A stretch of 64,000 nt of DNA from a virus: the IMG/VR virus record IMGVR_UViG_3300031227_009907, positions 1 through 64,000 of that record, one strand, 5' to 3'. Below the pieces are notes generated by a model, which saw only the letters and a list, made by a program, of their open reading frames with translations, was not told where the DNA came from and ran no database searches. Of this stretch, positions 11,204 to 47,375 are shown one piece after another. The translations under genes and the position numbers were made by a program. Positions within the stretch are counted from its first letter, which is position 1, and each line of letters starts with the position of its first letter.

Positions 11204-11510
11204 TGTAAATGGTGAAAAGTATGTTGTAGCCTGGAGATATACTAGGCATTTTCCTCCTTTCTTTAAATTTATTGGGATTACATATTGCTATATTAAGCTT
11301 TTCAATTTTAGCGATAAAAAAGGAGATTGGGGAGAAGAGATTGTTGCCTCCGATAGCGCCAAGTGCTCTGTTATGGATCAGTTTTGTAAGGATGTTGGTA
11401 GAAAAATTTCCTTAAAAAGAGCCCTTGTCGGTTTTGATAAAAACATTAGAGGTGCTTTTTGGCACGCATATTTGCATAGGAATGAGGAGGAAAAGAGTGA
11501 AGTGGCTTAG
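11193..11510 (+). CDS. Hypothetical protein
   Basis: About 105 residues from the ATG at 11193 that overlaps the end of the previous gene. The sequence is mixed alpha/beta and aromatic-rich (VVAWRYTRHFPPFFKFIGIT). No motif is recognised. It overlaps the downstream DUF5662-like gene by 14 nt. Confidence 0.5.
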   Translation: MKVNVNGEKYVVAWRYTRHFPPFFKFIGITYCYIKLFNFSDKKGDWGEEIVASDSAKCSVMDQFCKDVGRKISLKRALVGFDKNIRGAFWHAYLHRNEEEKSEVA

Positions 11511-11997
11511 GTATCTTAAATATATTTTAATCCATAAATGGTACGTGATGTTGATGTGTTTTAGATTTGGCCTTATATGGCGCGGTGTTGTGCATGATTT
11601 GTCTAAATTTTATCCTTCAGAGTTCATTCCCTATATTGAACATTTTTATGGTAAGAAAGCAAAAAAGTGGAGAGATAATACTGGCTATTATAAACCTTCT
11701 GATACTGGTGATTTAAATTTTGATAGGGCATGGAATTATCATGCTAATAGGAACGATCATCATTGGCAGTTTTGGGCTATCCCTGAATATGATAGTGTTA
11801 AAGCTCTTGAGATGCCCGAAAAGTGTGTAAAAGAAATGATATGTGACTGGTGGGGAGCCAATAAAGCACAAGGGCATGGGGGATGGGGAGGCCCTGATGG
11901 GGTTAGAGTTTGGTATATGAAAAATGAATATAAGATGGTTTTGCACATTAATAGTAGATTGATGGTGGAGCGCATTCTTAATGAAATTTCTGGGTAA
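11497..11997 (+). CDS. DUF5662-like phage protein
   Basis: 166 residues from a GTG at 11497 preceded by GGAGG. It matches the pattern I know for DUF5662: KWYVMLMCFRFGLIWRGVVH, then DLSKFYPSEF, a central FDRAWNYHANRNDHHWQFW and an EMICDWWGA helix. The conserved His/Asp/Asn residues (HDLSK, HANRNDHHW) suggest a metal-binding active site, perhaps HD-like, but no activity is established. Its last codons (ATGAAATTTCTGGGTAA) repeat the start of the SNF2 helicase gene. Confidence 0.75.
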   Translation: MKWLRYLKYILIHKWYVMLMCFRFGLIWRGVVHDLSKFYPSEFIPYIEHFYGKKAKKWRDNTGYYKPSDTGDLNFDRAWNYHANRNDHHWQFWAIPEYDSVKALEMPEKCVKEMICDWWGANKAQGHGGWGGPDGVRVWYMKNEYKMVLHINSRLMVERILNEISG

Positions 11998-12017
11998 ATT
12001 GTTACCATTCTAAGAGA
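11981..12017. repeat. Direct repeat, copy of the SNF2 helicase gene start
   Basis: 37 nt beginning ATGAAATTTCTGGGTAAATT match the first 37 nt of the helicase gene at 12203-12239 with about four mismatches. Here the sequence is read as the 3' end of the DUF5662-like gene and the following spacer. The small membrane gene at 12030 sits between the two copies. Confidence 0.85.
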
Positions 12018-12029
12018 TAGAGGAGAGTA

Positions 12030-12203
12030 ATGATGGGTATTTTAGAGACAGCTATAAATCTTGTTGTGTGGTTTTTGTGTATGTTATTCTCTATTATATG
12101 TGTTATTTATTCTGGTGAGTTTAAGGGACCTAACAGGGTTATACTTTTTGGTATTGCAATTATCCTTGTTTATCTTATGACATTGCGTAAGCCAGGTGGG
12201 TAA
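12030..12203 (+). CDS. Small two-helix membrane protein
   Basis: 57 residues, with AGAGGAGAG just upstream of the ATG at 12030 (a second ATG follows at 12033). Two hydrophobic stretches (NLVVWFLCMLFSIICVIY and VILFGIAIILVYLM) flank a short polar loop. The stop overlaps the helicase ATG as TAATG. Direct repeats of the helicase start bracket it, which suggests a recent insertion. The function is unknown. Confidence 0.6.
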   Translation: MMGILETAINLVVWFLCMLFSIICVIYSGEFKGPNRVILFGIAIILVYLMTLRKPGG

Positions 12204-13609
12204 TGAAATTTTTGGGTAAATTGTTACCATTCCAAAAGACAGGGGTAGATATTGCCTTTGAGGCTCTACATGAGACCCGTAAGGCGTTTATCCTATCTGA
12301 CCAAATGGGCCTAGGTAAAACTTTTTCTGGGATTGCTATAGCTAGTAGGATGGACATTAATCGATGTCTAGTTGTCTGCCCAAACCCGGCAAAGGAAATA
12401 TGGGCAAGCCATATTGAAAAGCTTACAGATGCTAGCTATTTAATTGTTAATTCAAGGAGCGAATTAAAGAGCAGGGTTAATTTTTTAATAATTGGATATG
12501 ATAGGTTGCGGATATTAGAAGGTTGTATATCTAATAAATATTTTGAATTATTGATTGCTGATGAATTTCATAGCATAAAAAATCCAGACGCTAAAAGGTC
12601 GCAAGCTATTAGATCATTGAATGCTAAGTTTAGGCTTTTCCTGTCTGGAACTCCTGTTTTAAATTATAGGGATGAATTATTTAATGTATTGAATATCGTT
12701 GATCCTGTAGAGTTTCCAGGTTATGATAACTTTGTAAGTCGCTTTTGTACTACAGACAGAATAAGGGTTAGATATAGGAAGGGCAGGCGATGGAGGACTC
12801 ATTTTGTTAAAAAGGTTTGTGGTGGCAAAAATACGAAGGAGTTAGTTGGTTTAATTAGTCCCTTTATGCTTAGGCGTACAAGAAAAGATGTTCTTCCTTT
12901 TTTACCTGAAGAACTTTATCAAACCTATTATGTAGACATGAAGGGAAAACAGTTACAGCTTTATAAAAAGGTTGAGAGGTCACTAAGAGACGATATAGAT
13001 AAGAAGGGGGTTAATACTCAAAATGCAATTGTCCGTTTTACTAAACTTAGGCAGATGTGCCAGATAGTTAAGAGGGATAGTGGAAAATATAGTTCTGTAA
13101 AGTTAGATTTCCTAGAAGAGCTTTGTGAAGATATTTTACAGACTAAAGATGATGGGAATATAAATAAAATACTTGTTGTGTCCCCATTTCGAGTCCCAGT
13201 TAGACATGCCCGTAAGATGCTAAACGCCTTTAATCCCGTATATGTTGATGGGACTGTTTCTGATGATGATATGGAGAAGGAGAAGAAAAAGTTTCAAGAA
13301 GATAAAACATGCCGTGTTTATATTGGAACAATCAGGAAGAATATGCAGGCCATTACCCTTACGGCGGCAACTCATGTTATATATATAGGGTGTGACGTTG
13401 TTCCTGCGTATAATGAGCAAGTTAAGGATAGGGCCATAAGGATAGGGCAGAAAAGGTCTGTATTGGTAATAAAAATTCTTTGCAGAGATAGTATCGAGGA
13501 GAGGATTGAAGAAATATTAGAGAGAAAGGGGGATGATTTCAACGATCTATTTGGTAAGGGGGGGAATAGGTTTAGTAGAAGCATAAGCTCGATAAGAAAG
13601 GTATTGTAA
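12203..13609 (+). CDS. SNF2/UvsW-like superfamily 2 helicase
   Basis: A 468-residue SF2 ATPase. SDQMGLGKTFSGIAIA is motif I. ADEFHSIKNPDAKRSQAI is motif II, with DEFH instead of DEAH. LFLSGTPVLNY is motif III, GTIRKNMQAITLTAATHVIY is motif V and DRAIRIGQKRSV is motif VI, with the SNF2-type IGQ. The length suits a stand-alone phage SNF2-like helicase acting in replication restart or recombination, as T4 UvsW does. Its 5' 37 nt and 3' 50 nt each recur once next to the gene. Confidence 0.88.
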   Translation: MKFLGKLLPFQKTGVDIAFEALHETRKAFILSDQMGLGKTFSGIAIASRMDINRCLVVCPNPAKEIWASHIEKLTDASYLIVNSRSELKSRVNFLIIGYDRLRILEGCISNKYFELLIADEFHSIKNPDAKRSQAIRSLNAKFRLFLSGTPVLNYRDELFNVLNIVDPVEFPGYDNFVSRFCTTDRIRVRYRKGRRWRTHFVKKVCGGKNTKELVGLISPFMLRRTRKDVLPFLPEELYQTYYVDMKGKQLQLYKKVERSLRDDIDKKGVNTQNAIVRFTKLRQMCQIVKRDSGKYSSVKLDFLEELCEDILQTKDDGNINKILVVSPFRVPVRHARKMLNAFNPVYVDGTVSDDDMEKEKKKFQEDKTCRVYIGTIRKNMQAITLTAATHVIYIGCDVVPAYNEQVKDRAIRIGQKRSVLVIKILCRDSIEERIEEILERKGDDFNDLFGKGGNRFSRSISSIRKVL

Positions 13610-13611
13610 TG
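13562..13611. repeat. Direct repeat A, 3' end of helicase gene
   Basis: 50 nt covering the last codons of the helicase (NRFSRSISSIRKVL) and the next start codon. They recur at 13878-13927 with a few substitutions and no role as coding sequence. Confidence 0.85.
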
Positions 13612-13872
13612 AAATACGCTGTCAGTGTAAAAGAGAAAAAGCAGCGTTGTCCTCGTAGGCATGAAAGATTATGGGAATTTGGGAAGGGAGGAGGTGTCGT
13701 TTATTGGTGTCTTGACTGTGGGGGGATTTCTTTAAAGAATATTCCGAAGGGAACAAGAAGGCTTTGGTTTTATCCTGGCAGCACTAATGATAGATTTGAA
13801 AAAGATGTAGAAATATGGAATAAGATTGTGAATATTATTGATGAGATGCACAATAATAGCTGTAGGATTTAA
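13609..13872 (+). CDS. Small zinc-finger-like protein
   Basis: An 87-residue protein whose ATG overlaps the helicase stop (TAATG). Metal ligands look like CPRRHERLW followed by WCLDCGG, a C-x3-H/CxxC arrangement. The rest is basic and aromatic. It lies exactly between the two copies of a 50-nt repeat taken from the helicase 3' end, so it is a good candidate for an inserted cassette. The function is unknown. Confidence 0.6.
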   Translation: MKYAVSVKEKKQRCPRRHERLWEFGKGGGVVYWCLDCGGISLKNIPKGTRRLWFYPGSTNDRFEKDVEIWNKIVNIIDEMHNNSCRI

Positions 13873-13877
13873 GGGGG

Positions 13878-13927
13878 AGGGATAGGTTTAGTGGAAGCAT
13901 AAGCTCAATAAGAAAGGTGTTATAATG
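13878..13927. repeat. Direct repeat B, non-coding copy of helicase 3' end
   Basis: It matches 13562-13611 (about 45 of 50 nt), including the GATAGGTTTAGTGGAAGCAT core and AAGAAAGGTGTTATAATG at its end. Here it serves only as the leader of the gene at 13925. Confidence 0.85.
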
Positions 13928-14353
13928 TGGTTTTTTAAGAAAAGGCATGGAATGTGTTGTGTTTGCGGTAAATTGGTTCACGCTGGATTTGATGGAGACG
14001 TGGGGTGGGTTGACCATTATTTAACGGATCGCTATATTCATTTTTTATGCCGGGAAAGGCATAGTCCTAATGATAGACGGAAAGAAGGTACGAGCACAAG
14101 GCGTCTTAAGGTTCGTCGCAAGGAAGATAGAAATAATTTGCCCCCTGATAGTGTTAATATTTTAAAAATTCAGCTTGATTGTTTAGGGGCATTGGGGGTA
14201 GAGAAGTGGCTTATAAATGATGCTTTGAAGATGGCTCGGGAACGATGTGAGCAGATGAAGACCCCAAAGGGATTTACGGGAATGATTGGGATAACGGGGA
14301 TGGCGGAGAATTATATACGCGACAATGGCCTTAACAGTAAAGGAGATAAATAA
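13925..14353 (+). CDS. Hypothetical protein with N-terminal zinc-finger motif
   Basis: 142 residues. The N-terminus carries MCCVCGKLVH and a distal HFLCRERH, probably one zinc site. The C-terminal half (NILKIQLDCLGALGVEKWLI) is helical. Its leader is the copied helicase 3' end, whose AAAGG supplies the ribosome site. It ends in an ATG overlap with the next gene. No family is recognised. Confidence 0.55.
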   Translation: MWFFKKRHGMCCVCGKLVHAGFDGDVGWVDHYLTDRYIHFLCRERHSPNDRRKEGTSTRRLKVRRKEDRNNLPPDSVNILKIQLDCLGALGVEKWLINDALKMARERCEQMKTPKGFTGMIGITGMAENYIRDNGLNSKGDK

Positions 14354-17786: not shown

Positions 17787-17873
17787 GGGCCAGTGGCGGA
17801 ACGGCAGACGCAAGGGACTTAAAATCCCTCGTTATTAAATAACATATGGGTTCGACTCCCATCTGGCCCACCA
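17787..17873 (+). tRNA. tRNA-Leu (UAA)
   Basis: The acceptor arm GGGCCAG pairs with CTGGCCC, followed by discriminator A and encoded CCA. The anticodon arm AGGGA-CTTAAAA-TCCCT gives anticodon TAA. It has a long variable arm (CGTTATTAAATAACA) and a T arm with TTCGACT, all as expected for a class II leucine tRNA. Confidence 0.93.
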
Positions 17874-17884
17874 TTTATATATAA

Positions 17885-17960
17885 GGGGATGTAACTCAAT
17901 CGGCAGAGTAACGCCCTTTTAAGGCGTGAGTTCGGGGTTCGAGTCCCCGCGTCCCCACCA
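17885..17960 (+). tRNA. tRNA-Lys (UUU)
   Basis: A full 76-nt cloverleaf. GGGGATG pairs with CGTCCCC, the anticodon arm is ACGCC-CTTTTAA-GGCGT, the T arm is CGGGG-TTCGAGT-CCCCG, and CCA is encoded. Confidence 0.93.
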
Positions 17961-17965
17961 TTTAT

Positions 17966-18055
17966 GGGATCGTAGCTCAGTTTGGACAGAGCATTCGCCT
18001 TATAAGCGAAAGGCCATTTTGGTTCACGTTGGTTCAAATCCAACCGGTCCCACCA
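17966..18055 (+). tRNA. tRNA-Ile (UAU) with enlarged variable arm
   Basis: GGGATCG pairs with CGGTCCC; the D arm is GCTC-AGTTTGGACA-GAGC. The anticodon arm TTCGC-CTTATAA-GCGAA gives TAT, which reads AUA. The T arm is GTTGG-TTCAAAT-CCAAC and CCA is encoded. Between anticodon and T arms lie about 17 nt (AGGCCATTTTGGTTCAC) that can fold as GGCCA-TTT-TGGTT. Isoleucine tRNAs normally have 4-5 nt there, so this is atypical. Confidence 0.85.
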
Positions 18056-19750: not shown

Positions 19751-20032
19751 ATGCAAACCTTGAGTCACGAAAATGGGAGTATCTCTGTCTATCGTGGACC
19801 TTGGCAAATCATGGTTGCCGTCAAACATTGTCTCTGTTCTGATGGGAGAAAAAGAAGAGTCAGGATTACTGCGGTCCCTGATACGTTTTTTACTGTGTCC
19901 GGTTCTGTCCAGGTCAAAGGGAAAACGGTATCTGGATTCGTCACTACCTCTGCCACATGGAGTGGCGCCAAAGAAGGTCTTATATTTGTATCAAAAAGAT
20001 ATGGGAAAAATGCGAGTCTATTGCCGGAATAG
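19751..20032 (+). CDS. Hypothetical island protein
   Basis: 93 residues from the ATG at 19751 with AAGGGA 9 nt upstream; a TTG at 19730 is possible. It is beta-rich with short repeats (VSGSVQVKGKTVSGFVTTSA, ATWSG). The predicted fold resembles small beta-strand phage/plasmid proteins of unknown function. GC content is above that of the replication genes. Confidence 0.55.
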   Translation: MQTLSHENGSISVYRGPWQIMVAVKHCLCSDGRKRRVRITAVPDTFFTVSGSVQVKGKTVSGFVTTSATWSGAKEGLIFVSKRYGKNASLLPE

Positions 20033-20060
20033 ATGCAGCCTGGGAAGAATTCAAGGCAAG

Positions 20061-20085
20061 CTTAGAGTCTTAGAGTATGAAGGAG
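20061..20085 (+). repeat. Shared leader repeat, copy 1
   Basis: CTTAGAGTCTTAGAGTATGAAGGAG ends in the ribosome site of the gene at 20093. Near-identical copies are at 20374-20398, and shorter relatives are at 20577-20600, 20909-20931 and 21757-21778, each directly before a start codon. Confidence 0.8.
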
Positions 20086-20092
20086 CTTGAAA

Positions 20093-20341
20093 ATGAGATA
20101 TTACTACGCTGCCCAGAGTCCGAAAGGGTCTCGTAATGAGGTAAACGTACATCGGTTCAACTTGCGCGCATCCCGTGACGCTTGGGTCTCGGAGCATCGG
20201 TCCGACGGTGGCGTCAACAGTGTCACGCGGGGTGCGTACGTCCTGACCGCTGTTTCTGCGTGTCGCAAGCTTGCGACCGTAAGCATGAATGTAACTACCT
20301 CTCTCGTGGATCACGACGGGCTAGGAGAGCGTCCGATCTAA
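20093..20341 (+). CDS. Hypothetical island protein
   Basis: 82 residues from the ATG at 20093, AAGGAG 7 nt upstream. Ser/Thr/Arg-rich (HRFNLRASRDAWVSEHRSDG) and clearly GC-richer than the flanking phage core. The family is not recognised, although small proteins of this style are frequent in phage and plasmid accessory regions. Confidence 0.6.
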   Translation: MRYYYAAQSPKGSRNEVNVHRFNLRASRDAWVSEHRSDGGVNSVTRGAYVLTAVSACRKLATVSMNVTTSLVDHDGLGERPI

Positions 20342-20373
20342 AGACCTAAATTATGGATGGGAAGCAAGGCAAC

Positions 20374-20398
20374 CTTAGAGTCTTAGAGTATAAAGGAG
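20374..20398 (+). repeat. Shared leader repeat, copy 2
   Basis: CTTAGAGTCTTAGAGTATAAAGGAG, one mismatch to copy 1 over 25 nt. It supplies the Shine-Dalgarno for the GTG at 20405. The similarity extends upstream (GGGAAG, CAAGGCAA). Confidence 0.8.
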
Positions 20399-20404
20399 TC
20401 CAGA

Positions 20405-20578
20405 GTGTACACAGTCAAAGATTGCGCCGGAAGTGTTTCTTGTCTAAATCGGAGGGAATTGCGGGCTGTCTTGAGATATGAAGGTCTCACGCGCAAGGCC
20501 TTATTCTTTGTGCTGAAGGCACTAGACTTTTACCGTGTCGTCGTGAATGTTGGGGCGTTGTCTGTCTCTAGGGTTTAG
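20405..20578 (+). CDS. Small hypothetical island protein
   Basis: 57 residues from a GTG 6 nt after the AAAGGAG of the shared leader. The frame encodes CLNRRELRAVLRYEGLTRKA then FFVLKALDFYRVVVNVG, a helix-beta pattern. It is too short for routine gene calling, but the leader and codon use support it. The function is unknown. Confidence 0.5.
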   Translation: MYTVKDCAGSVSCLNRRELRAVLRYEGLTRKALFFVLKALDFYRVVVNVGALSVSRV

Positions 20579-20607
20579 TTGAGAGTCCTAAAAGGGAGAG
20601 TCCGGTA

Positions 20608-20883
20608 ATGAAAAAACCGAAAGTGATCCATGTTAGTGGGCGTCGGTGGTTTGATAAGGCAAGCGGCAACACGTACCATACGTGCAGAATTTGGGCAGAT
20701 GTAGACTGCGTCTATGTCTCGGGTATCACATGTGGATGCGGTAGTCAATATAAGGCTACCGCCGAAAGCTGGTTATACGAGAATGGATATCTGGAGGATA
20801 TAGGAAAGAAAGGCATTACATTTGTAAGCGACGTTTCTGATGTTGGACGGCTTAAAGACCTTTGGGGACAACAGCAGAATTGA
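20608..20883 (+). CDS. Hypothetical protein, NTYHT-type family, copy 1
   Basis: 91 residues beginning KKPKVIHVSGRRWF, then GNTYHTCRIW and YKATAESWLYENGYL. This is a widespread small phage/plasmid family of unknown function with a conserved GNTYH core. The paralogue is at 21782. Its last codons (WGQQQN) lie in a 79-nt repeat that is read in another frame at the end of the gene at 20936. Confidence 0.7.
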   Translation: MKKPKVIHVSGRRWFDKASGNTYHTCRIWADVDCVYVSGITCGCGSQYKATAESWLYENGYLEDIGKKGITFVSDVSDVGRLKDLWGQQQN

Positions 20884-20938
20884 GGAATCTTTGTGTTGGG
20901 CATTGGAAAGTTTAGAGTCTTAGGGAGAGTTTGCAATG
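20860..20938. repeat. 79-nt direct repeat, copy 1
   Basis: It runs from TTTGGGGACAACAGCAGAAT through the leader AGTCTTAGGGAGAGTTTGCA to the next ATG. Copy 2 is at 21706-21784 with a handful of differences. Both copies bridge the end of one gene and the start of the next. Confidence 0.88.
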
Positions 20939-21769
20939 GTATCTCAAGCAGACAACGTGCAAGGTATCGCCGATAAGTTTGTCGGCAATTGGAAAAAATT
21001 TGATTCGTTTAGTTGGTCGGGTATGCCCGATTGTGCCGATGAATGCGGCATATATTACGTGGGTACGCGCGATTCTGGTTTGCTAGAGGAAAGTAATTCT
21101 CAAGCGATTCAAGCGTCTCTAGAGCAGCACATGGGAGACATAGATGAAGGTGGCGATATACGAATTGAAACACATAGTCATTATGCGTTTGGGTGGATAG
21201 AGGGATTGACTATCCGCGTATATCGTTGTGGCGTTTTTACGAAAGGATTTTTAGCGTTTGTTGAATTGTTGACGGCGCTAGAATCCTATCCCATCCTAGA
21301 TGAACAGGATTGGTCCAGGCGCGAATATGAAGCCACCCTTGAGAGCATATCAGAGGTAGGCGGGAGCTTTGTATCTGATGATGTGTCTGAGGGCTGGCAA
21401 GGGGCAGTTTTTTCAGCTTTGGACGATAGACAAGTTGAGTCTAGAGACGGCAACGGTGGATACCCTGAAGAATCCGCCGTCAGACAGGCGCTAGGGGGAC
21501 TAGGCTACTTGGACAGGGGATATGTTATCGAAGATATTGAGTCAAGCCTTGATTTATTTGGTCTTTGGCTAGATACATTCCCTGACGATATTGCCGATAT
21601 CGTGCTTGACAGGTTGACCAAGGGGAATAAAGAGGTTATCGGGCAAGGTAGGTTGCCGGGCATGGAAAGTGTTGACCTGGCAGACTATGGCGTCTCTGAC
21701 CTTTACCTTGGGGACAACAGCAGAATTGAAAAGTCTTTGTGTTGGGCATTGAAAGGTCTAAAGTCTTAG
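20936..21769 (+). CDS. Hypothetical acidic island protein
   Basis: 277 residues, acidic, preceded by AGGGAGAG. There are no clear motifs; WVEGL-type aromatic strands (HYAFGWIEGLTIRVYRCGVF) and YPILDEQDWSRREYEATLES recur in uncharacterised phage/plasmid proteins I have seen. Its C-terminus (GDNSRIEKSLCWALKGLKS) is encoded by the second 79-nt repeat copy. It sits between two NTYHT-family paralogues. Confidence 0.6.
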   Translation: MVSQADNVQGIADKFVGNWKKFDSFSWSGMPDCADECGIYYVGTRDSGLLEESNSQAIQASLEQHMGDIDEGGDIRIETHSHYAFGWIEGLTIRVYRCGVFTKGFLAFVELLTALESYPILDEQDWSRREYEATLESISEVGGSFVSDDVSEGWQGAVFSALDDRQVESRDGNGGYPEESAVRQALGGLGYLDRGYVIEDIESSLDLFGLWLDTFPDDIADIVLDRLTKGNKEVIGQGRLPGMESVDLADYGVSDLYLGDNSRIEKSLCWALKGLKS

Positions 21770-21784
21770 GGAGAGTCTGTAATG
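21706..21784. repeat. 79-nt direct repeat, copy 2
   Basis: The counterpart of 20860-20938. Here GGGGACAACAGCAGAATT is translated as GDNSRI in the 3' end of the upstream gene, a different frame from copy 1 (GQQQN). Confidence 0.88.
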
Positions 21785-22084
21785 CGAAAACCGAAAGTGA
21801 TCCACGTTAGTGGGCGTCGGTGGTTCGGGAAAACTAATGGCAACACGTACCATACGTGCAGAATTTGGGTAGACGGAAAATTGGTTTATGTTTCAGGTCT
21901 CACATACGGGTACAGAGACCAGTATGAGGCTACGGCTGAAAGGTGGCTATATGAAAATGGATACCTGAAGGGGATAGAATCATATTCTAACGGGGGCCGG
22001 GAATCCCTGTATTACTATTGCGAAAAGAAAGGCATCAAACTTGTGAGCGACGTCTCAGACGTTTGTCGGCGTAAAGACCTGTAG
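21782..22084 (+). CDS. Hypothetical protein, NTYHT-type family, copy 2
   Basis: 100 residues, RKPKVIHVSGRRWFGKTNGN then TYHTCRIW and YEATAERWLYENGYL, close to the gene at 20608 but with a 15-residue insertion after ENGYL. The start region is nearly identical at DNA level, so the duplication is recent. The function is unknown. Confidence 0.7.
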   Translation: MRKPKVIHVSGRRWFGKTNGNTYHTCRIWVDGKLVYVSGLTYGYRDQYEATAERWLYENGYLKGIESYSNGGRESLYYYCEKKGIKLVSDVSDVCRRKDL

Positions 22085-22187
22085 GGGATATGCCAAGGTC
22101 TGTGTTTATTTAGAGGGTCCGCATCCGAATCGCGTTATCTGGGATGCGATAGGGATTGTTGAGGGTGGCGTCTTGGTAGAGATTTTT
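22085..22187. other. Short spacer with possible gene remnant
   Basis: It contains a third, degenerate copy of the GGGGATATGCCAAGG leader at 22084-22098 and an open stretch encoding GPHPNRVIWDAIGIVEGGVL up to a stop at about 22193, with no usable start codon. It looks like the 3' remnant of a lost small gene. Confidence 0.35.
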
Positions 22188-22221
22188 AGATAGTTTTCTT
22201 AAGGGGATAAGCCAGGATGAG
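22188..22221 (+). repeat. Leader repeat AGATAGTTTTCTTAAGG, copy 1
   Basis: AGATAGTTTTCTTAAGGGGA followed by TAAGCCAGGATGAG. A near-identical copy is at 22400-22433; both end at a start codon. Confidence 0.85.
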
Positions 22222-22405
22222 AGTAAAAAAGCCTGTGTTGAAAAATCTTAGGATGAAACATAAAGAGATATTGGAAATGGTTGAGCAGGCTAGATTCAAT
22301 CTGAGACTTTGGATCGAATTTAGCGAAGATGCAATGTACGAAAAAGGGATAGGCTTTGATTGTTTGTTGGCTGTGGAAAATCTTCTCAATAAAGCTCTTA
22401 GATAG
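22217..22405 (+). CDS. Small helical hypothetical protein
   Basis: 62 residues, mostly helical (MKHKEILEMVEQARFNLRLW), ATG after AAGGGG. It shares its 34-nt leader with the following ParB-like gene. The function is unknown. Confidence 0.5.
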   Translation: MRVKKPVLKNLRMKHKEILEMVEQARFNLRLWIEFSEDAMYEKGIGFDCLLAVENLLNKALR

Positions 22406-22433
22406 TTTTCTTAAGGAGATATGCCAGGATGAG
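22400..22433 (+). repeat. Leader repeat AGATAGTTTTCTTAAGG, copy 2
   Basis: AGATAGTTTTCTTAAGGAGA followed by TATGCCAGGATGAG, overlapping the end of the upstream gene and the start of the ParB-like gene. Confidence 0.85.
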
Positions 22434-22851
22434 AAGAAACGAGCATTCAGTTAAATCAAGTGACCGGGTTGAGTTAGGAGAGTACATTTGCTCAATATAT
22501 CCGCTTGTTGGCGTAACCGTTGACGGCAGAGTAATACGCGATTCAAGCAATGTTCCGAATGTCGATTCAATTGCTGCGTCTGTGCTCTATTATGACGTGC
22601 TCCCTGGACTTAGGGAAGTTCGCATGGTTGATTTTGAATTGACCGGGAAGCACTATTCTGTCAAGGGGAATAATCGGATTCGTGCGCTTCAAGGGGCGAT
22701 TGCCGAAAGCAATGAGATTGCGCCGCTTATCGTTGTCGTTGATGAGGGGGGACCTTATATCCTGGAGGGGGCGACGCGGGCAGATGCGTTGTATAATCTT
22801 GGCGCGAAGTCGTTTCCGGCTCTGGTGGTAATAGACGTGGAAAGTCCTTGA
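22429..22851 (+). CDS. ParB/sulfiredoxin-like nuclease-fold domain protein
   Basis: 140 residues. YSVKGNNRIRALQGAIAESN, APLIVVVDEGGPYILEGATR and ADALYNLGAKSFPALVVID follow the ParB N-terminal domain pattern (ExGxxRxxAL helix, then I/V strand). No HTH or C-terminal dimer domain is present, so it is not a partition protein. Stand-alone ParB-fold proteins in phages act as CTPases or nucleases or are uncharacterised. Confidence 0.65.
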   Translation: MRRNEHSVKSSDRVELGEYICSIYPLVGVTVDGRVIRDSSNVPNVDSIAASVLYYDVLPGLREVRMVDFELTGKHYSVKGNNRIRALQGAIAESNEIAPLIVVVDEGGPYILEGATRADALYNLGAKSFPALVVIDVESP

Positions 22852-22861
22852 ATAATTTTCC

Positions 22862-22889
22862 TTGACTTCTCGTGGTTTTGTGATATGTT
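22862..22889 (+). promoter_or_regulatory. Possible sigma70-like promoter
   Basis: TTGACT, 16-nt spacer, TATGTT, about 45 nt before the gene at 22933. The -35 hexamer is the same as in the island promoter at 19679. Confidence 0.45.
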
Positions 22890-22932
22890 TGTATAGTGAG
22901 GTCTTGAAAGTCTTTTTTCATGGAGCAGAAAA

Positions 22933-23133
22933 ATGGAAGTGAAGTATCCGAATGTGAAGGTTTCATTGGTTGGGAAAAGCGGAGAGGCTTTTGCAATTCT
23001 TGGGGCTGTTGAAGAGGCAATGCGAAGGGCTGGTGTCAACAAAGCAGATAGAGACCGGTACATGGATGAGGCTACGGCTGGTGATTATGATGCGCTTTTG
23101 CAAACGACTATGAAGTGGGTTGAAGTCGAATAG
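22933..23133 (+). CDS. Small conserved hypothetical phage protein
   Basis: 66 residues. The pattern YPNVKVSLVGKSGEAFAILG, AVEEAMRRAGV, EATAGDYDALLQTTMKWVEV is one I recognise as a common small uncharacterised phage/plasmid family. The leader TCATGGAGCAGAAAAATGG is shared with the next gene. Confidence 0.65.
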   Translation: MEVKYPNVKVSLVGKSGEAFAILGAVEEAMRRAGVNKADRDRYMDEATAGDYDALLQTTMKWVEVE

Positions 23134-23178
23134 TTTTCTAATGAATTTTTCTTGTCTTTTTTTTCATGGAGCAGAAAA

Positions 23179-23964
23179 ATGGCGTATCTAGAGAGAATCC
23201 CTGTTGGCGATTTTCCGGCAATCGTTAATATGTTAGGGGAAAAAGGGTCTAAAAAATTGGGCTACAACACGTATCTGGAGTGGAGGAAAGGAGCGCATTC
23301 AAAGGGCTGTATCGGGATTAGGTACAATAGCACTTTCGTTGTAACCTATTATCACGATGGGAAAATTGAGCTTAATAGTGGCGGCTGGAAAACGCGAACA
23401 ACTAAACAACGGATTGTTCATGGGTTGCCTGGAGGGTGGAGTTTGAGTCAGAGGGATTCTGTGTGGTATCTGTCTAATGGTAGCGTTGATTGGCAGTTCG
23501 CAGACGGTATTATCATTGTGCCCGATGGGACCGTTGTAAGTGGCGCTAATCGTACGCTAAGAGAGATTTTTGCGCTAAAGAAGAAAATTTTAGAGTACTG
23601 CAAGGATTATATCGAAAAGCTTTTCAACGGGCATGTTCCGGCCCCTAGTCGTGCGGATTGTTGGTATTGTTTTTTGAGTACGCGAGAGGGTGTCCCGGTA
23701 GGAGAGGCTACCGGTAACATAGATCACCTTGAGAGTCACTTTGAAAGGAGATACTACGTTCCCAGTCTGCTGACTCGTGCCATTGCAGTAATCCCCGTGT
23801 CTAGGCTCGCAATGTCGGTTCTGGGGACATTCTGGGGGGGGAATTGGGCTGAGAGGCAAAAAAGGCAGGCTCTTAATTCTGGGTGGAGCAAGGGGATTGC
23901 TAAGGAGCAGCTATGTAAAAGCCTCTACAGGTATCTAACGCGGCAATTCGGTTTTGCCAGCTAA
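23179..23964 (+). CDS. Conserved hypothetical phage protein
   Basis: 261 residues from the ATG at 23179, which sits in the same TCATGGAGCAGAAAAATGG leader as the gene before it. The N-terminal half (IGIRYNSTFVVTYYHDGKIE, LNSGGWKTRTTKQRI) follows a beta-rich family common in phages. The middle has a possible zinc site (CWYCFLST, then HLESHFE). The role is unknown. Confidence 0.65.
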   Translation: MAYLERIPVGDFPAIVNMLGEKGSKKLGYNTYLEWRKGAHSKGCIGIRYNSTFVVTYYHDGKIELNSGGWKTRTTKQRIVHGLPGGWSLSQRDSVWYLSNGSVDWQFADGIIIVPDGTVVSGANRTLREIFALKKKILEYCKDYIEKLFNGHVPAPSRADCWYCFLSTREGVPVGEATGNIDHLESHFERRYYVPSLLTRAIAVIPVSRLAMSVLGTFWGGNWAERQKRQALNSGWSKGIAKEQLCKSLYRYLTRQFGFAS

Positions 23965-24016
23965 GGGGCGGCTTTTTAATGGGGCTATAGAAAGATAAAT
24001 CTAAAGGAGAAGTCTA

Positions 24017-24685
24017 ATGGGTTTCAAAGTATTCATTTGTTCGGTGTGTGGCAAAGAAGTTTCTAGAAAAAAATCATATGCACTTCCCGATGGGACTCGG
24101 GCTTGTCGCGAGCACGAGGTTGCACAGTCGGGACGGCAAGAACTTCAAAAAAGGGAAATTGCCAAGAAGGCGGCTGAACAGACGAAACGAAGGAAAATAA
24201 AGGAACGCGGGGAATTTTTTGGTGAGCCTTTTTGGGGTATGAACCATTGTTGGACCTGTGGGGCTGAGGGAACTCCTCCGAACGAAATAAAAGACCGTAT
24301 GATGATTGCGTGGGAGAAGGTGCGTCTGAAGGCAGAGTCGGACCCGTTCGCCGCTCCTATCAATTTTCTATCTCCCAATTTTTTTATTGCGCTGAGGAAA
24401 GAATCGGGGATAGAAAATCCTCTTATACAATTCGTAGTGTCTCCCGAGAGGATGGGAGAAATTCTCAATCGTACTAAGCACTCTCAGAGACAGGCAGTTG
24501 AATTTGTCGGGATTACGCAGATATGTCCGAAGTGCGCCAAGGAACTAGGAATGGAGCCACCCTCCATTCCCGAAATAAACATAGAGAATTTGTCTACAAT
24601 GAGCGCTATCTATGATGTAATGGTTAGGCCAGCGGTGGAAGATCGGGCACGGGCTGAAATTAGGGAAGAGGTCGCTAGAAACTGA
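24017..24685 (+). CDS. Hypothetical zinc-finger protein
   Basis: 222 residues with three cysteine clusters: FICSVCGKEV with C/H partners RACREH, CWTCGAEG, and ICPKCAKELG. A basic coiled stretch (ELQKREIAKKAAEQTKRRKI) follows the first. It may bind nucleic acid. AAAGGAG precedes the ATG. The family is not recognised. Confidence 0.6.
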   Translation: MGFKVFICSVCGKEVSRKKSYALPDGTRACREHEVAQSGRQELQKREIAKKAAEQTKRRKIKERGEFFGEPFWGMNHCWTCGAEGTPPNEIKDRMMIAWEKVRLKAESDPFAAPINFLSPNFFIALRKESGIENPLIQFVVSPERMGEILNRTKHSQRQAVEFVGITQICPKCAKELGMEPPSIPEINIENLSTMSAIYDVMVRPAVEDRARAEIREEVARN

Positions 24686-24738
24686 AATTAAGGGGATTGT
24701 TTACATATGTTTTATTTGTCTAAAAAGGAGTCTTTGAA

Positions 24739-25491
24739 ATGTTGAACGTGGAAGTATGCGGTAGAGAAAAGACGTTGGCTCAGTTGAAACTAATCCCTGT
24801 AGATCGTCCTGAGAGGGCGTCGGACCGGGGGCACGGTGTCTCACACCACGAACTAGCCACGGGGCTGCTAGGCGAGTTCCAGGACAGGGAAATTGACGTT
24901 GTGGGGCATAGGTGGGCGACCGATAAGACAAATCAGGTTTTAGTGGGGGCTATTGAGGTAAAATTTCCCGAAGAATTCGACGTTCCTGAGATCGCTGGCA
25001 TGGGATATTGTCTGGGCGTACGTCATTCAAATGATTTGAGGTATGCGCTCGTGGGGGCCGTTGGCGCAAGAGTTTTTGCTTGTTCTAATGGCGTTATCAC
25101 GGGGCAATTCGTTATGTCTCGGAGGCATACGAAAAACATTGACCTTGATGAGCAGATTTATAACGGGATTACACGTTTCATCAGAGAGGCCAGAGGCGTT
25201 AGTTTCTTTGTGGATACTCTCCAGGAGAGAAAATTGTCTGATTCGGATAGTGATAGGATTCTCATGGAGGCAGGCCGGCAAAGGCTCATCCCGTGGAGTC
25301 GAATTGGGCGGATCGATAGAGAGTATCACAATCCGTCTTGTGAGGAGTTTGAGCCCGGGAATGCCTGGGGGCTGTATAACGCTTTTACGCGATACGTCCA
25401 GCTATCCCCTCCACACGATCAGATGAGAGCGATTGCGGGATTTAGGCCGGTTATTCTTGGAGAGAAGCCAGAAACATATCTTGGAAATTAA
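24739..25491 (+). CDS. DUF932-like phage/plasmid protein
   Basis: 250 residues. GMGYCLGVRHSNDLRYALVG then AVGARVFACSNGVITG, SRRHTKNIDL and a C-terminal GNAWGLYNAFTRYVQ match the DUF932 pattern found in phages and plasmids. No enzymatic activity is known for the family. AAAAAGGAG lies upstream. Its codon use is GC-rich like the rest of the island. Confidence 0.7.
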   Translation: MLNVEVCGREKTLAQLKLIPVDRPERASDRGHGVSHHELATGLLGEFQDREIDVVGHRWATDKTNQVLVGAIEVKFPEEFDVPEIAGMGYCLGVRHSNDLRYALVGAVGARVFACSNGVITGQFVMSRRHTKNIDLDEQIYNGITRFIREARGVSFFVDTLQERKLSDSDSDRILMEAGRQRLIPWSRIGRIDREYHNPSCEEFEPGNAWGLYNAFTRYVQLSPPHDQMRAIAGFRPVILGEKPETYLGN

Positions 25492-25502
25492 GGGAGAAAG
25501 AA

Positions 25503-25685
25503 ATGAGTGGAACCGTAGAGAAATTGTCGGATGAAGACTTTGCAGAAAGGGTTAAACAAATGGTCTTAGACATTGATCCTAATGAGATCAACCCAGAGGA
25601 ATTGGATAGCTTTCTTGGGTCTTTATGGGTCACTTTTGGTCTTGATGTCTTTTTTGAAGATGGTTCCTGGCGTATCCATAAGTAG
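25503..25685 (+). CDS. Small acidic hypothetical protein
   Basis: 60 residues, acidic and helical (EDFAERVKQMVLDIDPNEIN), with GGGAGAAAG before the ATG. The function is unknown. Confidence 0.5.
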   Translation: MSGTVEKLSDEDFAERVKQMVLDIDPNEINPEELDSFLGSLWVTFGLDVFFEDGSWRIHK

Positions 25686-25696
25686 GGAGAAATGAA

Positions 25697-26221
25697 ATGG
25701 AGCCTCGTTGTCCAGTAGTGAAGAATGGAGATGGGTTTTGTATGGGGAGTAGATGCCGATGGTGGATGAAAGAAGAAAAGGAGTGTGCTATTTCGTTGAT
25801 AGCAAAGCGGGCTATTGATGCTGGGATCACGGCGGCGGTGGTGCAAGCGGAGAAAGGGGTGTGTACGCGTTGTTGGGGGACTGGATGGTTGCATGATTTG
25901 TCTAATAAGCCAACCAATGTGCGGTGTCCTAATGGATGTTCTAAGCCTGATCTTTCAGAAGAGAAGTGTGGGATTTGTGGACGTGGGTTAGTAGACGGTC
26001 AGTGTCCAGATGATACAGGATTTCCTGAGCCCCCAGAAGAATTAAAATCTTTTATTGTTGGAAAGGACTATGTCAATACATCTTATGTTAGGGTGATGGC
26101 GAAAAATGAGGGGGAAGCAAAACAGAAAGCGGAGGGTGGCGGGCCTCTTGTGATTGGGATACAGGATCAATTTAAGTGTTGGTTGGATTGTGACCAGTGG
26201 AGCGTCCAAGAGGACAAATAA
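25697..26221 (+). CDS. Hypothetical protein with DnaJ-type and zinc-ribbon cysteine motifs
   Basis: 174 residues. An N-terminal cysteine set (RCPVVKNGDGFCMGSRCRWW) precedes CTRCWGTGWLHD...RCPNGC, which resembles one DnaJ-type CxxCxGxG half, and then CGICGRGLVDGQCP. The C-terminal 60 residues (SFIVGKDYVNTSYVRVMAKN) are alpha/beta without cysteines. Several zinc sites are likely. The function is unknown. Confidence 0.55.
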   Translation: MEPRCPVVKNGDGFCMGSRCRWWMKEEKECAISLIAKRAIDAGITAAVVQAEKGVCTRCWGTGWLHDLSNKPTNVRCPNGCSKPDLSEEKCGICGRGLVDGQCPDDTGFPEPPEELKSFIVGKDYVNTSYVRVMAKNEGEAKQKAEGGGPLVIGIQDQFKCWLDCDQWSVQEDK

Positions 26222-26235
26222 GCAAGGAGAATGCT

Positions 26236-26628
26236 GTGAAAGTTGTCGTTAAACAGCCTGAAGGGGTTAAGTTGGTTAAGAACGTCTCGTGGCGCTATAT
26301 TACTCCTGAGATTTTGTATGTCTCGATAAGCGTTACAGAGAAATGGCCTTCTTATGGTTGGGGTGGCGGTATCACCGATAAAGGGGAGTCCTATGGTGGT
26401 GTTTATCTTTATGCGGGGGGTGATGAAGCCATTAGGACTTTTACTGCTAAGACAGTTGAGGTAGGTTTTATCCCGGAGAATGATAGGGAGAAGACTATCC
26501 TTGGGGGGGTAAAAGCTACTCTTGAGCCGTATTATGGCGTTCATTATCTCATAATGACAAATGAATGCCTCTCAGCCGCTTTGAAGAAGCAGTCGGGGGG
26601 TTCCCTTAATCTTGAGGTCAATGAGTAG
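26236..26628 (+). CDS. Hypothetical island protein
   Basis: 130 residues from a GTG at 26236, AAGGAG 8 nt upstream. It is beta-rich (EILYVSISVTEKWPSYGWGG), with no motif recognised. The leader and first seven codons recur as a truncated copy at 27013-27045. Confidence 0.5.
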   Translation: MKVVVKQPEGVKLVKNVSWRYITPEILYVSISVTEKWPSYGWGGGITDKGESYGGVYLYAGGDEAIRTFTAKTVEVGFIPENDREKTILGGVKATLEPYYGVHYLIMTNECLSAALKKQSGGSLNLEVNE

Positions 26629-26665
26629 GGGTATTATTTTTCCTATTTTAAGCGAGGAGAAAGAA

Positions 26666-26977
26666 ATGTCTGAATATGAGTACCCTTACCCTATAACGTC
26701 AGATACTCCGATGGGGAAGCTTATTGATCGGATAGGTGATTCGCTTGCGAGCAAAGGCCAGCAACTGTGTTGGTTCCGCTCAGGCCGGAGCACTAACCGT
26801 GCGAATGTGACCGTGAATGCCGGGATTTTTCCATTGGGTATTAGAACGTCTGTACATGGGAAAGATTGCATTCATCATCTTGTTTCGTGGGACTGGACTC
26901 CGCATGTTGGTAAAACGGAAAGGAGTGCTCAGTATAAAGACCTAAACTATGAATGGGGCAATTATATTAGTGAATAG
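26666..26977 (+). CDS. Hypothetical island protein
   Basis: 103 residues from the ATG at 26666 with GAGGAGAAAG upstream. There are no cysteine clusters or membrane segments; the sequence is mixed (MGKLIDRIGDSLASKGQQLC). The family is not recognised. Confidence 0.5.
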   Translation: MSEYEYPYPITSDTPMGKLIDRIGDSLASKGQQLCWFRSGRSTNRANVTVNAGIFPLGIRTSVHGKDCIHHLVSWDWTPHVGKTERSAQYKDLNYEWGNYISE

Positions 26978-27023
26978 GAATGAAATGTGTCTTAAGGCTA
27001 CCCTGGGAACTAAGGAGAGTGCT

Positions 27024-27065
27024 GTGAAAGTTGTTGTTAAACAGCAGAACAGGGAAGGACGGTGA
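27024..27065 (+). pseudogene. Truncated copy of the 26236 gene start
   Basis: GTGAAAGTTGTTGTTAAACAG repeats the first seven codons (VKVVVKQ) of the gene at 26236, including the preceding AAGGAG and CTGTG. It then runs into unrelated sequence and a stop after 13 codons. It marks a recombination junction where a GC-rich gene (27070) joined. Confidence 0.75.
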
Positions 27066-27069
27066 CGGG

Positions 27070-27252
27070 ATGACTCACCTGTACAAAACGACGTATCATC
27101 GGGATGGAAGCGTGACGCTGTGGAACGTCTACACACAGGATTGGGAGCGGACCTCGTCCCCATCGGATAGGGTCCTGTCCTCGCTCGATGCAGACGAGCG
27201 GCGTCGCGTGACACGACACACTGAGAGCTTGGTTCATAACACACCCGAATGA
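27070..27252 (+). CDS. Small conserved hypothetical protein, GC-rich
   Basis: 60 residues. HLYKTTYHRDGSVTLWNVYT and RTSSPSDRVLSSLDADERRR follow a small phage/plasmid family known from many accessory regions. The GC-rich codon use contrasts with its neighbours. Its ribosome site (GGAAGGACGG) lies inside the truncated copy just upstream. Confidence 0.65.
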   Translation: MTHLYKTTYHRDGSVTLWNVYTQDWERTSSPSDRVLSSLDADERRRVTRHTESLVHNTPE

Positions 27253-27288
27253 CATTTAACGCCCGCGAGGGCAAAGGAGGATGACGCT

Positions 27289-27543
27289 GTGAGTGTCTGT
27301 GACGACATCTGCGAGCTGATAGACGATGGCGTGCCGCTCGATGATATCCTCGTTAATGACGGCGACGATACGCTGGGCGATGACTGCGCTATCACTCAGG
27401 CAGCGCTTGATGAACTTATCCGGGAGTGGGAATCGTCTGGTAGAGATTGCTCCGGCGTTGATCTCTCAAGCGCTCGGGCCTGGCTCACACGTCGAGGGCT
27501 TGATCCCGACAAACCAATGTCTTGGGCCGGTGAGGGAGGCTGA
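27289..27543 (+). CDS. Small acidic hypothetical protein, GC-rich
   Basis: 84 residues from a GTG 8 nt after AAAGGAGG. Strongly acidic (ELIDDGVPLDDILVNDGDD), ending in WLTRRGLDPDKPMSW. The composition matches the preceding gene, so the pair probably arrived together. The function is unknown. Confidence 0.55.
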   Translation: MSVCDDICELIDDGVPLDDILVNDGDDTLGDDCAITQAALDELIREWESSGRDCSGVDLSSARAWLTRRGLDPDKPMSWAGEGG

Positions 27544-27563
27544 AGTAGTTTCATGGTAGTTGA

Positions 27564-27604
27564 ACAATTCAGTGGAACAATTCAGTGTAACAATTCAGTG
27601 GAGC
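27564..27604. repeat. Three tandem copies of AACAATTCAGTG
   Basis: AACAATTCAGTGGAACAATT continues with two further AACAATTCAGTG units, immediately upstream of the sigma-like gene's ribosome site (GTGGAG). They could be an operator or a replication slippage product. Confidence 0.75.
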
Positions 27605-27610
27605 GATATA

Positions 27611-28099
27611 ATGACATTTGAACAAGTTTTAGCGGCAACGATGCCGACTATAAGAAAATGTAGCTTTGTTATGCCAGGGAACAGGGATGATAATGACGCT
27701 GATTTACAGGCGTTGTGCTGGGTTGCTTGGAAGAGGTGCCCAGTTAATGATGAATTTAAGAGGTATTTTTATAAATGCGTAAGGTCTAAATTTAGTAGGT
27801 TCAAAAGATTTACTCTTCCAACGGTTGACCCCGCAGAATTTTGTGAGTGTGTTGGGAAAAGTCTTTTATCATATGAGCATTTTTTTGATAAGGTCCGGGA
27901 AATCCTGCCCCCACTTCCCTCTCCTATTACTCGATTATTTTCATTATATGAAAGTCCTCCGCATGAATTGGCCTGTGATCCTAAGTGGTCTTCGTGGAAG
28001 ATCGCGCAGCACCTGGGGATTAGTGAACAGTATGTTAGGAGGTTAAAGGCAAGGCTTTATGACGTTGTTATTGCTTTAATAAAAAGGGAAATAGGATGA
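27611..28099 (+). CDS. Sigma70-family-like protein
   Basis: 162 residues from the ATG at 27611 with GGAG upstream. The N-terminal part (DDNDADLQALCWVAWKRCPV then RYFYKCVRSKFSRF) resembles a sigma region 2 helix set. The C-terminal WKIAQHLGISEQYVRRLKAR is a helix-turn-helix like region 4. Region 3 is absent, as in small ECF-like or phage sigma proteins. It may direct polymerase to phage promoters. Overlap with the next gene is 4 nt. Confidence 0.6.
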   Translation: MTFEQVLAATMPTIRKCSFVMPGNRDDNDADLQALCWVAWKRCPVNDEFKRYFYKCVRSKFSRFKRFTLPTVDPAEFCECVGKSLLSYEHFFDKVREILPPLPSPITRLFSLYESPPHELACDPKWSSWKIAQHLGISEQYVRRLKARLYDVVIALIKREIG

Positions 28100-28443
28100 A
28101 GTCTTCTAAAAAAACAAATTGGAGTCTTAAGGACTGGGTTAAGTTTGTTCTTGACAAGCCTATTAAGGTAAGACGAAAAAATATAGTCAGAGTGATTAGT
28201 ATAGTAAGGCGGCTATACCTATATTCTGTGTGGAAGAAAGAATCTGTCCGGAAGGAGATATATGGATTTGTGTGTCTTGATCCTATGAGCCAGTCGTCTG
28301 GGGAGAAGAACCAATATCTGTTTGGTGCCCCCATTAAGGGGACGGTCCCAGAGCGGATAGCTCACCCTGGTTACGCTAGGGCTAAGTTGACTGTTTATCA
28401 CGGAGGAATGGAGCCTGGGGCCTGGAAACTTAGAAAGGGGTAG
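28096..28443 (+). CDS. Basic hypothetical protein
   Basis: 115 residues. A basic N-terminus (KVRRKNIVRVISIVRRLYLY) is followed by a region with Gly/Pro turns. It shares the 3' sequence CTGGAAACTTAGAAAGGGGTAG with the following gene. No family is recognised. Confidence 0.5.
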   Translation: MKSSKKTNWSLKDWVKFVLDKPIKVRRKNIVRVISIVRRLYLYSVWKKESVRKEIYGFVCLDPMSQSSGEKNQYLFGAPIKGTVPERIAHPGYARAKLTVYHGGMEPGAWKLRKG

Positions 28444-28448
28444 TTCCC

Positions 28449-28772
28449 ATGGGGCGTATTTCAATGTTGACACTTGATGATGTAAGAAATAAAGATGGTG
28501 GCGGGTTTTATAAGTTCGTTAAAATGAATGAGGGATCGTTTCGTTTTTTCGATGTTACTAATTCTCCCCGGAGGAATCATGCGTCTTTACTTTTAGAGGG
28601 TGAGACCAAAGATGATGTGTCGTCGGCGGGCTCCATATGCACGTATGGTTCTCCCACTAAAGGGTCATGGAGAATGAAGGATTTTGGGTCTTTGACATTA
28701 ATGGTTGGGGGCTCTTACGGTGTCGAAGATGAATTGAGGGCATTGCTTTTGCCTAGAGCATGGAAAACTTAG
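28449..28772 (+). CDS. Hypothetical protein
   Basis: 107 residues; its ATG follows GAAAGGGGTAGTTCCC. Its end (PRAWKT and the DNA TGGAAAACTTAGAAAGGGGT) mirrors the end of the previous gene (AWKLRKG), so the two share duplicated 3' sequence. No motif is recognised. Confidence 0.5.
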   Translation: MGRISMLTLDDVRNKDGGGFYKFVKMNEGSFRFFDVTNSPRRNHASLLLEGETKDDVSSAGSICTYGSPTKGSWRMKDFGSLTLMVGGSYGVEDELRALLLPRAWKT

Positions 28773-28848
28773 AAAGGGGTAGCATTTATGTAATGTTGAG
28801 GCTTTAGTATGGTGTGTTGGGAAATACATTTGTAAAAGGAGATATCGG

Positions 28849-29805
28849 ATGGCGAAGGAAAATGAAATGGAAGAGGCTTTGAGTGGCCTGGAGGATTTGG
28901 ATGACATTTTTGAGGAGGAGGATGGAGGCGAATCTGGAGATGAGCTTGTTGACGAGGAAGGGCTTGACGATTCTGACCCTGATGAGGAGGGTGAAGAGGA
29001 GGTGGTTGATGAGGTAGATGAGGTAGAAGATACGGGTTCTGATGATATTGACAATCTTTTTGGGGCCGATGAGGAAGAGGAATCTGAAGGGGTATCTGAC
29101 GAGGAATTGGGAGGTGATGTATTGTTTGAAGCTGAGGTTTCTGAGCCAGCGTCCAAAGAGGAGCCTGAGAAGGGCACAGATAAAGCGGTTGAACCTAGGC
29201 GGGGTCGTGGTCGTCCGAAGGGAAGCAAAAATAAGGCCACTAAGGCTACCGAGACCGCTAAGAGTGCTAAGACTACTGAGGCTGCTGAGACAACTAAGGC
29301 TGCTAAGGCTGCCGAGACCACTGAGGCCGTTGAGTCCGTTGAGGCCGCTAAGGCTACGGGTAAGGTGCAAAAGGGGTCTCAGGAGGCAAAGGACCGTATG
29401 GCTAAAGCCCGTGAAGCTCGAAAATCGCCTGGACGTACGGGTTACCCAAGGCTCGTTGTTGGTAGCGTAAGGACGGTTATCCCTGCTACATTTAAGGAAC
29501 TTTATTCGCTTTGCGCGACTAAGATTCCTGGTGTTGAGATTCTTCACAAGAAAACCCGGTCTGTTATGCGCGTTAATGGTCATCCATTCGCAACATTCGT
29601 TATGGATGGGATGGGGGTCGCAAATTGCACGGTCTACCTGAATAAGTCCGCGAACACCAAGTTTGATGATCCCAATGGGCTCCTTGGGGATGCTGCTGAC
29701 CTGAGTGTTGCCGGGGTCGGTTATAAGATTTCCGTTACAGTGCCGACTCAGATTGCAGCCCTGAAGCTGATCGCGCAGCATTTTAAGGTCGTTAGAGCTA
29801 CGTAA
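28849..29805 (+). CDS. AT-hook protein with acidic N-terminus
   Basis: 318 residues in three parts. Residues 1-120 are highly acidic (Glu/Asp over half). Residues 122-133 carry a textbook AT-hook, RRGRGRPKGSKNK. A Lys/Ala/Thr/Glu repeat (AKTTEAAETTKAAKAAETTE) of about 45 residues follows. The last 120 residues form a folded domain (MRVNGHPFATFVMDGMGV). The architecture suggests a minor-groove DNA-binding or nucleoid protein. The low-complexity tract may vary in length. AAAAGGAGATATCGG precedes the ATG. Confidence 0.7.
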   Translation: MAKENEMEEALSGLEDLDDIFEEEDGGESGDELVDEEGLDDSDPDEEGEEEVVDEVDEVEDTGSDDIDNLFGADEEEESEGVSDEELGGDVLFEAEVSEPASKEEPEKGTDKAVEPRRGRGRPKGSKNKATKATETAKSAKTTEAAETTKAAKAAETTEAVESVEAAKATGKVQKGSQEAKDRMAKAREARKSPGRTGYPRLVVGSVRTVIPATFKELYSLCATKIPGVEILHKKTRSVMRVNGHPFATFVMDGMGVANCTVYLNKSANTKFDDPNGLLGDAADLSVAGVGYKISVTVPTQIAALKLIAQHFKVVRAT

Positions 29806-29825
29806 CGAGCTTTTCCATTGTGGTG

Positions 29826-29841
29826 TTTGTTCTTTGACATT
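29826..29841 (+). repeat. 16-nt repeat TTTGTTCTTTGACATT, copy 1
   Basis: An exact 16-nt match to 30171-30186. Both lie shortly after a gene stop and both include TTGACA. Confidence 0.8.
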
Positions 29842-47374: not shown

Positions 47375-47375
47375 A

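Follow-up and report, generated by a model that had tools for sequence, protein, structure and literature searches.

Copies of both ends of an SNF2-family helicase gene enclose single small genes in a phage genome and point to probable insertion with junction duplication

In the phage DNA analysed here, a helicase gene of the SNF2 family is bordered on both sides by copies of its own ends, and, as a sequence-only reading had reported, one small gene lies inside each repeat pair (57 aa at 12030-12203 and 87 aa at 13609-13872). In our opinion the best reading of this arrangement, and a probable one, is insertion of single genes with local duplication of the junction on each side of the helicase gene. 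By the window we mean the whole stretch of 64,000 nucleotides that was analysed, taken from an uncultured virus record that is 81,576 bases long. The genome encodes DnaE polymerase, DnaB, DnaC-type proteins, primase, RecA, a putative terminase and tRNAs. Three tRNA genes (Leu-TAA, Lys-TTT, Ile-TAT) lie at 17787-18055; the putative large terminase gene at 49833-52772, its identity unconfirmed by Pfam, contains an intein with an HNH motif (PF14890, PF13392). The helicase locus consists of the following features.

11482-11997, + strand: DUF5662 gene (Pfam PF18907, E=4.7e-36), with its final codons and stop codon within the helicase-start copy
11979-12023, + strand: copy 1 of repeat A, the duplicated SNF2 5' end, beginning TAATG, 89% identical to 12201-12245
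12030-12203, + strand: enclosed gene 1, an ORF for a 57-aa hydrophobic (probable membrane) protein, its stop overlapping the SNF2 start codon (TAATG)
12201-12245, + strand: copy 2 of repeat A, by repeat comparison the real SNF2 gene start
12203-13609, + strand: SNF2-family helicase gene, 468 aa (PF00176, E=3.2e-33; PHROG 62, E=5e-97)
13555-13611, + strand: copy 1 of repeat B, by repeat comparison the real SNF2 end up to the ATG of the enclosed gene
13609-13872, + strand: enclosed gene 2, 87 aa, with a CxxC motif and no significant family (Pfam below threshold)
13870-13927, + strand: copy 2 of repeat B, the duplicated SNF2 end, now serving the 142-aa gene as untranslated leader and start codon, 90% identical to 13555-13611
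13925-14353, + strand: 142-aa gene (ORF), its start region being the duplicated SNF2 end

That the start of the helicase gene recurs upstream and its end downstream is confirmed by self-BLAST. Pair A (11979-12023 and 12201-12245) extends over 45 nt with 5 mismatches (~89% identity, 59.9 bits), and pair B, in which the last 54-58 nt of the gene recur (13555-13611 and 13870-13927), over about 58 columns with 6 substitutions and a 1-nt gap (89.7% identity, 75.2 bits), whereas the best self-match anywhere in ten block-wise first-order shuffles of the window reached 36.5 bits. The edges are abrupt, and one edge of each repeat falls exactly at a TAATG/ATG junction.

On the left, the DUF5662 gene shares its last codons and stop with a (former or copied) helicase start, because TAATGAAATTTCTGGGTAA, within the 3' end that reads ATT-CTT-AAT-GAA-ATT-TCT-GGG-TAA, opens the helicase-start copy. 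The earlier statement that this copy forms the end of the DUF5662 gene is correct for its first 17 nt (11981-11997), but what follows in the copy is spacer together with the ribosome-binding region of the 57-aa gene. In a Moorella phage and in a Manatee Spring phage the DUF5662 homologues stop at nearly the same place, no more than several residues away. No SNF2 gene was seen beside two DUF5662 homologues of other phages. The 57-aa gene closes with GGGTAATG, in which its stop overlaps the real helicase start; its product has no Pfam match, and its best PHROGs match has E=0.039.

On the right, the helicase gene ends in TATTGTAATG, the ATG of which opens the 87-aa gene. This gene stops at 13872, directly after it stands the second helicase-end copy, TGTTATAATG, and the ATG of that copy opens the 142-aa gene. 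A non-coding leader is therefore a fair description in so far as the copy is untranslated, but it is not an anonymous one, since its end coincides exactly with the ATG (13925) of the 142-aa gene and it is a translation-start region. The product of the 87-aa gene, which had been called a zinc finger, has the appropriate cysteine spacing, but its Pfam match is below threshold (E=0.026); it shows no phage match and no similarity to its 142-aa neighbour, for which no phage match was found either.

The copies can be compared letter by letter with the intact helicase ends. All 11 mismatches in the two pairs are transitions, one of them is a stop codon, and 4 of the 11 are synonymous, against 34% of the possible transitions in the same stretches (neutral model, P=0.55), a comparison that involves a small sample of 11 differences at gene termini, which can be loosely constrained. 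Because this proportion fits the expectation for no constraint, we read the copies as drifting neutrally; they look as if they had drifted as non-coding DNA after the duplication. The same numbers bear on the possibility of a single allele replacement, in which a donor cassette carrying the 57-aa gene, SNF2 and the 87-aa gene displaced a resident SNF2 gene whose two ends remain. One such event would account for both pairs and for their equal identity (~89%), and the methyltransferase 3' ends at 47-48 kb, listed below, resemble remnants of another allele. However, in remnants of an allele that had been functional most differences would be expected at synonymous positions, which is hard to reconcile with 4 of 11 and a stop codon: the probability is 0.0005 at a dN/dS of 0.1, 0.014 at 0.2 and a borderline 0.065 at 0.3, and weak constraint on gene termini may apply. 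We regard a single replacement as unlikely. An assembly artefact was also considered and rejected: the copies have diverged, and a further record, which comes from another sample and carries SNPs, shows the repeats at 46-48 kb as well; for the SNF2 locus there is one record only.

Neither enclosed gene has DNA or protein similarity to its neighbours, though the adjoining repeat is 89% identical, and for this reason a simple tandem duplication is excluded. A tandem duplication of the junction and a neighbouring gene, after which one of the two gene copies diverged extremely, would be in keeping with the true tandem families of this genome (the genes at 33684-34684 and a 91/100-aa pair), but the same contrast between unlike genes and a well conserved repeat makes it very improbable. 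The family at 33684-34684 consists of five small genes in tandem, 58-66 aa, of which the middle three have the end AAKRWAKKLGI in common.

The insertion was proposed to be independent of a visible transposase, and this agrees with our analysis: no transposase or integrase family was found among the proteins of the SNF2 neighbourhood, where an IstB-like match is a DnaC-type loader by PHROGs, and there are no local inverted repeats near this locus. Thus the terminal inverted repeats and target duplication of fixed length by which a transposon or IS element is known are lacking here, and with repeats of variable length such an element was rejected. Neither the 57-aa nor the 87-aa product matches an endonuclease family, as a homing-endonuclease insertion would have it. 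Like morons, the enclosed genes sit between intact genes to which they are unrelated; the promoter and terminator pair of a classical moron was not found in plausible form around either of them, the scan giving no excess. It counts against insertion that the G+C of the 57-aa and 87-aa genes is not clearly different from that of their surroundings, and that two independent insertions at the two ends of one gene are needed.

The helicase locus does not stand alone. Besides the SNF2 pairs and true paralogue pairs, self-comparison of the window gave about ten further short direct repeats, as follows.

20041-20085 and 20358-20398, + strand: 45-nt repeat of a gene end and ribosome-binding site around an 82-aa ORF (20093-20341), 87% identity
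20862-20938 and 21708-21784, + strand: 77-nt repeat with AATG end on both sides of a 277-aa gene, 88% identity
22186-22232 and 22398-22444, + strand: 37-47-nt repeat around a 62-aa gene, 95% identity over 37 nt
22913-23182, + strand: 24-nt repeat (22913/23159) with ATGG end around a 66-aa gene, 100% identity
26224-27045, + strand: 34-nt repeat of a gene start (ribosome-binding site, start and 7 codons; 26224/27012) around two ORFs, 94% identity
28413-28782, + strand: a weaker case, 32-nt repeat of a gene 3' end including the stop (28413/28751) around a 107-aa gene, 37 bits
46569-47484, + strand: 32-nt repeat (46569/47453) of a 76-aa ORF 3' end and ribosome-binding site around an N6/N4 DNA methyltransferase gene, 100% identity
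47333-48308, + strand: three copies of the methyltransferase-gene 3' end (from 47333, from 47534, and 48245-48308), 81% and 94% identity

At 36 bits or more all repeats of the window are direct and lie within 1.6 kb, none being inverted or dispersed; at a low threshold there are 31 local direct matches against 1-2 in shuffles, and 2 inverted ones against 0-1. Repeat length varies from 24 to 77 nt, and each family has its own sequence with no cross-family matches in self-BLAST. A predicted gene start or stop is carried by 17 of the 22 copies (11 pairs), while random placement gave a mean of 2.9 and a maximum of 9 in 5000 trials. The gene caller for this comparison was a simple home-made program based on codon usage, and the count of 17 is conservative because the program misses genes near 20 kb.

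Some of these repeats deserve further description. The last ~20 codons of the 277-aa gene are the second copy of the 77-nt repeat (21708-21784). Paralogous 91-aa and 100-aa genes (20.6 and 21.8 kb) stand on either side of this gene within 20593-22086, the first of them joined at TTGGGG to a copy of the end of the 277-aa gene; this order suggests serial duplication and insertion at one spot. The block at 20000-30000, of ~47% G+C against ~38-40% in the genome, has many small ORFs and junction repeats and looks like a region of recent gene gain. The sequence of the repeat at 46569-47484 is also found in two other records of the same phage. Of the copies that resemble the coding end of the methyltransferase C-terminus, the one at 48245-48308 serves in another frame as the start of a 235-aa gene, and it apparently has a 1-nt deletion in common with the one at 47534-47597.

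Two further explanations have to be weighed against these families. A DNA fragment captured at a staggered double-strand break (paired nicks), with fill-in, would produce a target duplication of variable length; it would leave the same footprint and is in accord with repeats of 24-77 nt, but by itself it does not explain why one edge is so frequently placed at a start codon, though selection could. We hold such capture to be quite unlikely. It could also be that the repeats are functional regulatory elements (promoter, terminator or translation signal) copied for use, and ribosome-binding regions are indeed present in the copies. This fails because no two families share a sequence, because their folding does not surpass that of shuffled controls (no stable RNA fold, z-scores +0.6 to +1.5), and because promoter- or terminator-like sites are not in excess; we find it scarcely credible.

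The earlier proposal of cassette insertion at gene ends with terminal duplication thus fits best, given the sharp TAATG edges, the unrelated DNA inside, the neutral drift and the many similar pairs, and it falls short of proof. Since no empty site and no relative was found, we infer the ancestral gene order, as we do the direction of insertion, its enzymology and the role of selection. The older string of genes would have been DUF5662, SNF2 and the 142-aa gene, with the two small genes inserted on either side of SNF2. As genes overlap or abut here (TAATG stop/start junctions), a plain insertion would break a neighbour, and the surviving events would be those in which the junction was duplicated and each neighbour kept a complete end: DUF5662 would keep its stop in the helicase-start copy, the helicase would keep both of its ends, and the helicase-end copy would preserve the ribosome-binding region of the 142-aa gene. 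The duplication could arise by illegitimate template-switching recombination in phage replication, one joint using the microhomology of start codons (TAATG/AATG) and the other lying 45-58 nt inside the helicase gene, at no evident homology; synthesis that returned upstream of its departure point would duplicate the junction. Where no duplication occurred, the overlapping neighbour or the ribosome-binding site of that neighbour would be broken; such events would be lost, and selection would thereby enrich the footprint. Recombination-linked replication is plausible in this phage, given its RecA, a 5'-3' exonuclease, and a metallophosphoesterase and AAA/SMC-like ATPase in SbcD/SbcC order.

No close relative other than the same phage was found in the collections searched. 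There was no DNA match to it in 50,697 phage records, and when viral contigs were scanned with single proteins (SNF2, DnaB, DnaE and the putative terminase), two other records of the phage came up, which are 100% identical over 50.9 kb and at least 99.95% over 54 kb, and collinear throughout; neither covers 11-15 kb. No relative was found among genome contigs, and an exact scan for the helicase-end repeat found none. A degenerate scan for helicase motifs gave only helicases of 21-37% identity, and in an alignment-based DnaE scan the best identity, the same phage aside, was 38% among the matches listed. A relative, whether it had the small genes or lacked them, was not found in these collections; the three records represent one phage, and the SNF2 locus is in the window's own record alone. 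The window starts with a collagen-like repeat gene (1-1378), for which L094 8307-8724 is also listed. Positions 1-406 are matched at 94% by the end of record G001, which may mean a circle of ~99 kb or variation at the window start.

How common are such repeats elsewhere? The same filter gave 15 repeats in the window, or 11-12 without collagen-like and coding repeats, against 8 in 852 kb of other phage loci, about half of them of low complexity; these loci (L012-L090) are surroundings of DnaE genes and an imperfect match, as they may be quieter than average. The full genome of Streptomyces phage Byblos has no local pair except tRNA copies; a human-gut phage contig (L114) has a few. Most repeats in the first 75 kb of T4 are far apart, as dispersed elements would be, and the local ones lie around internal-protein genes. 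A clear independent case of junction duplication is present in an unrelated high-G+C phage (L072), where 39 identical nt with a TGATG end (821-859 and 1516-1554) stand on both sides of a methyltransferase gene, at the end of the upstream gene and again at the end of the methyltransferase gene. No empty site was found for it: the upstream gene has no phage homologue, and L106, the one further contig in which the repeat occurs, carries both copies.

We offer the wider idea tentatively, and consider it rather doubtful, that this phage lineage gains single genes recurrently at start codons, each accompanied by a local duplicate of the end of the gene before it. If true, a tightly overlapping genome could grow with no gene broken, and recent gene gain in phages could generally be read from its footprint, a local direct repeat. 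The addition of small genes to overlapping phage genomes has so far been inferred largely from comparing relatives; with a footprint in a single genome, gene gains could be dated and oriented more easily when relatives are lacking, the newer of two adjacent genes could be suggested, and gene gain would become countable across public phage genomes, where the case in the high-G+C phage suggests that a survey would find more.

Among known systems, phage mosaicism and moron-type insertions are alike in that single small genes lie between conserved genes, with no mobility gene and with joints at gene ends; the difference is that in the present genome a duplicated junction surrounds the insert, and this is seen many times over. 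The PeSL mobile regulatory cassettes of T4, as far as they are described in PMC4503421 (which cites Arbiol 2010 and Comeau 2014), are promoter/stem-loop elements dispersed over the genome, a short repeated sequence between genes that is tied to gene shuffling. In contrast, the repeats here are local only, family-specific and without stem-loop or promoter excess, and PeSL cassettes were rejected, since the repeats fold no more stably than shuffled sequence, all significant repeats of the window are local and no family matches another. In Cluster K mycobacteriophages, the start-associated sequences are a single motif common to many genes and might serve recombination (PMC3203893); repeats at gene starts are the likeness, but every pair here has its own sequence, and the absence of cross-family similarity in self-BLAST speaks against such a motif. 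In brucellaphages, indels are bounded by direct repeats, 9-bp repeats at one region, and a duplication made a new ORF (PMC5350156); direct repeats border the inserts there as here, where they measure 24-77 nt and occur at about ten gene junctions. Recurrent duplication of gene ends around phage inserts was not found described in the open-licence literature. The SNF2 locus is therefore best filed as illegitimate single-gene insertion, marked by junction duplication and by recurrence in one genome.
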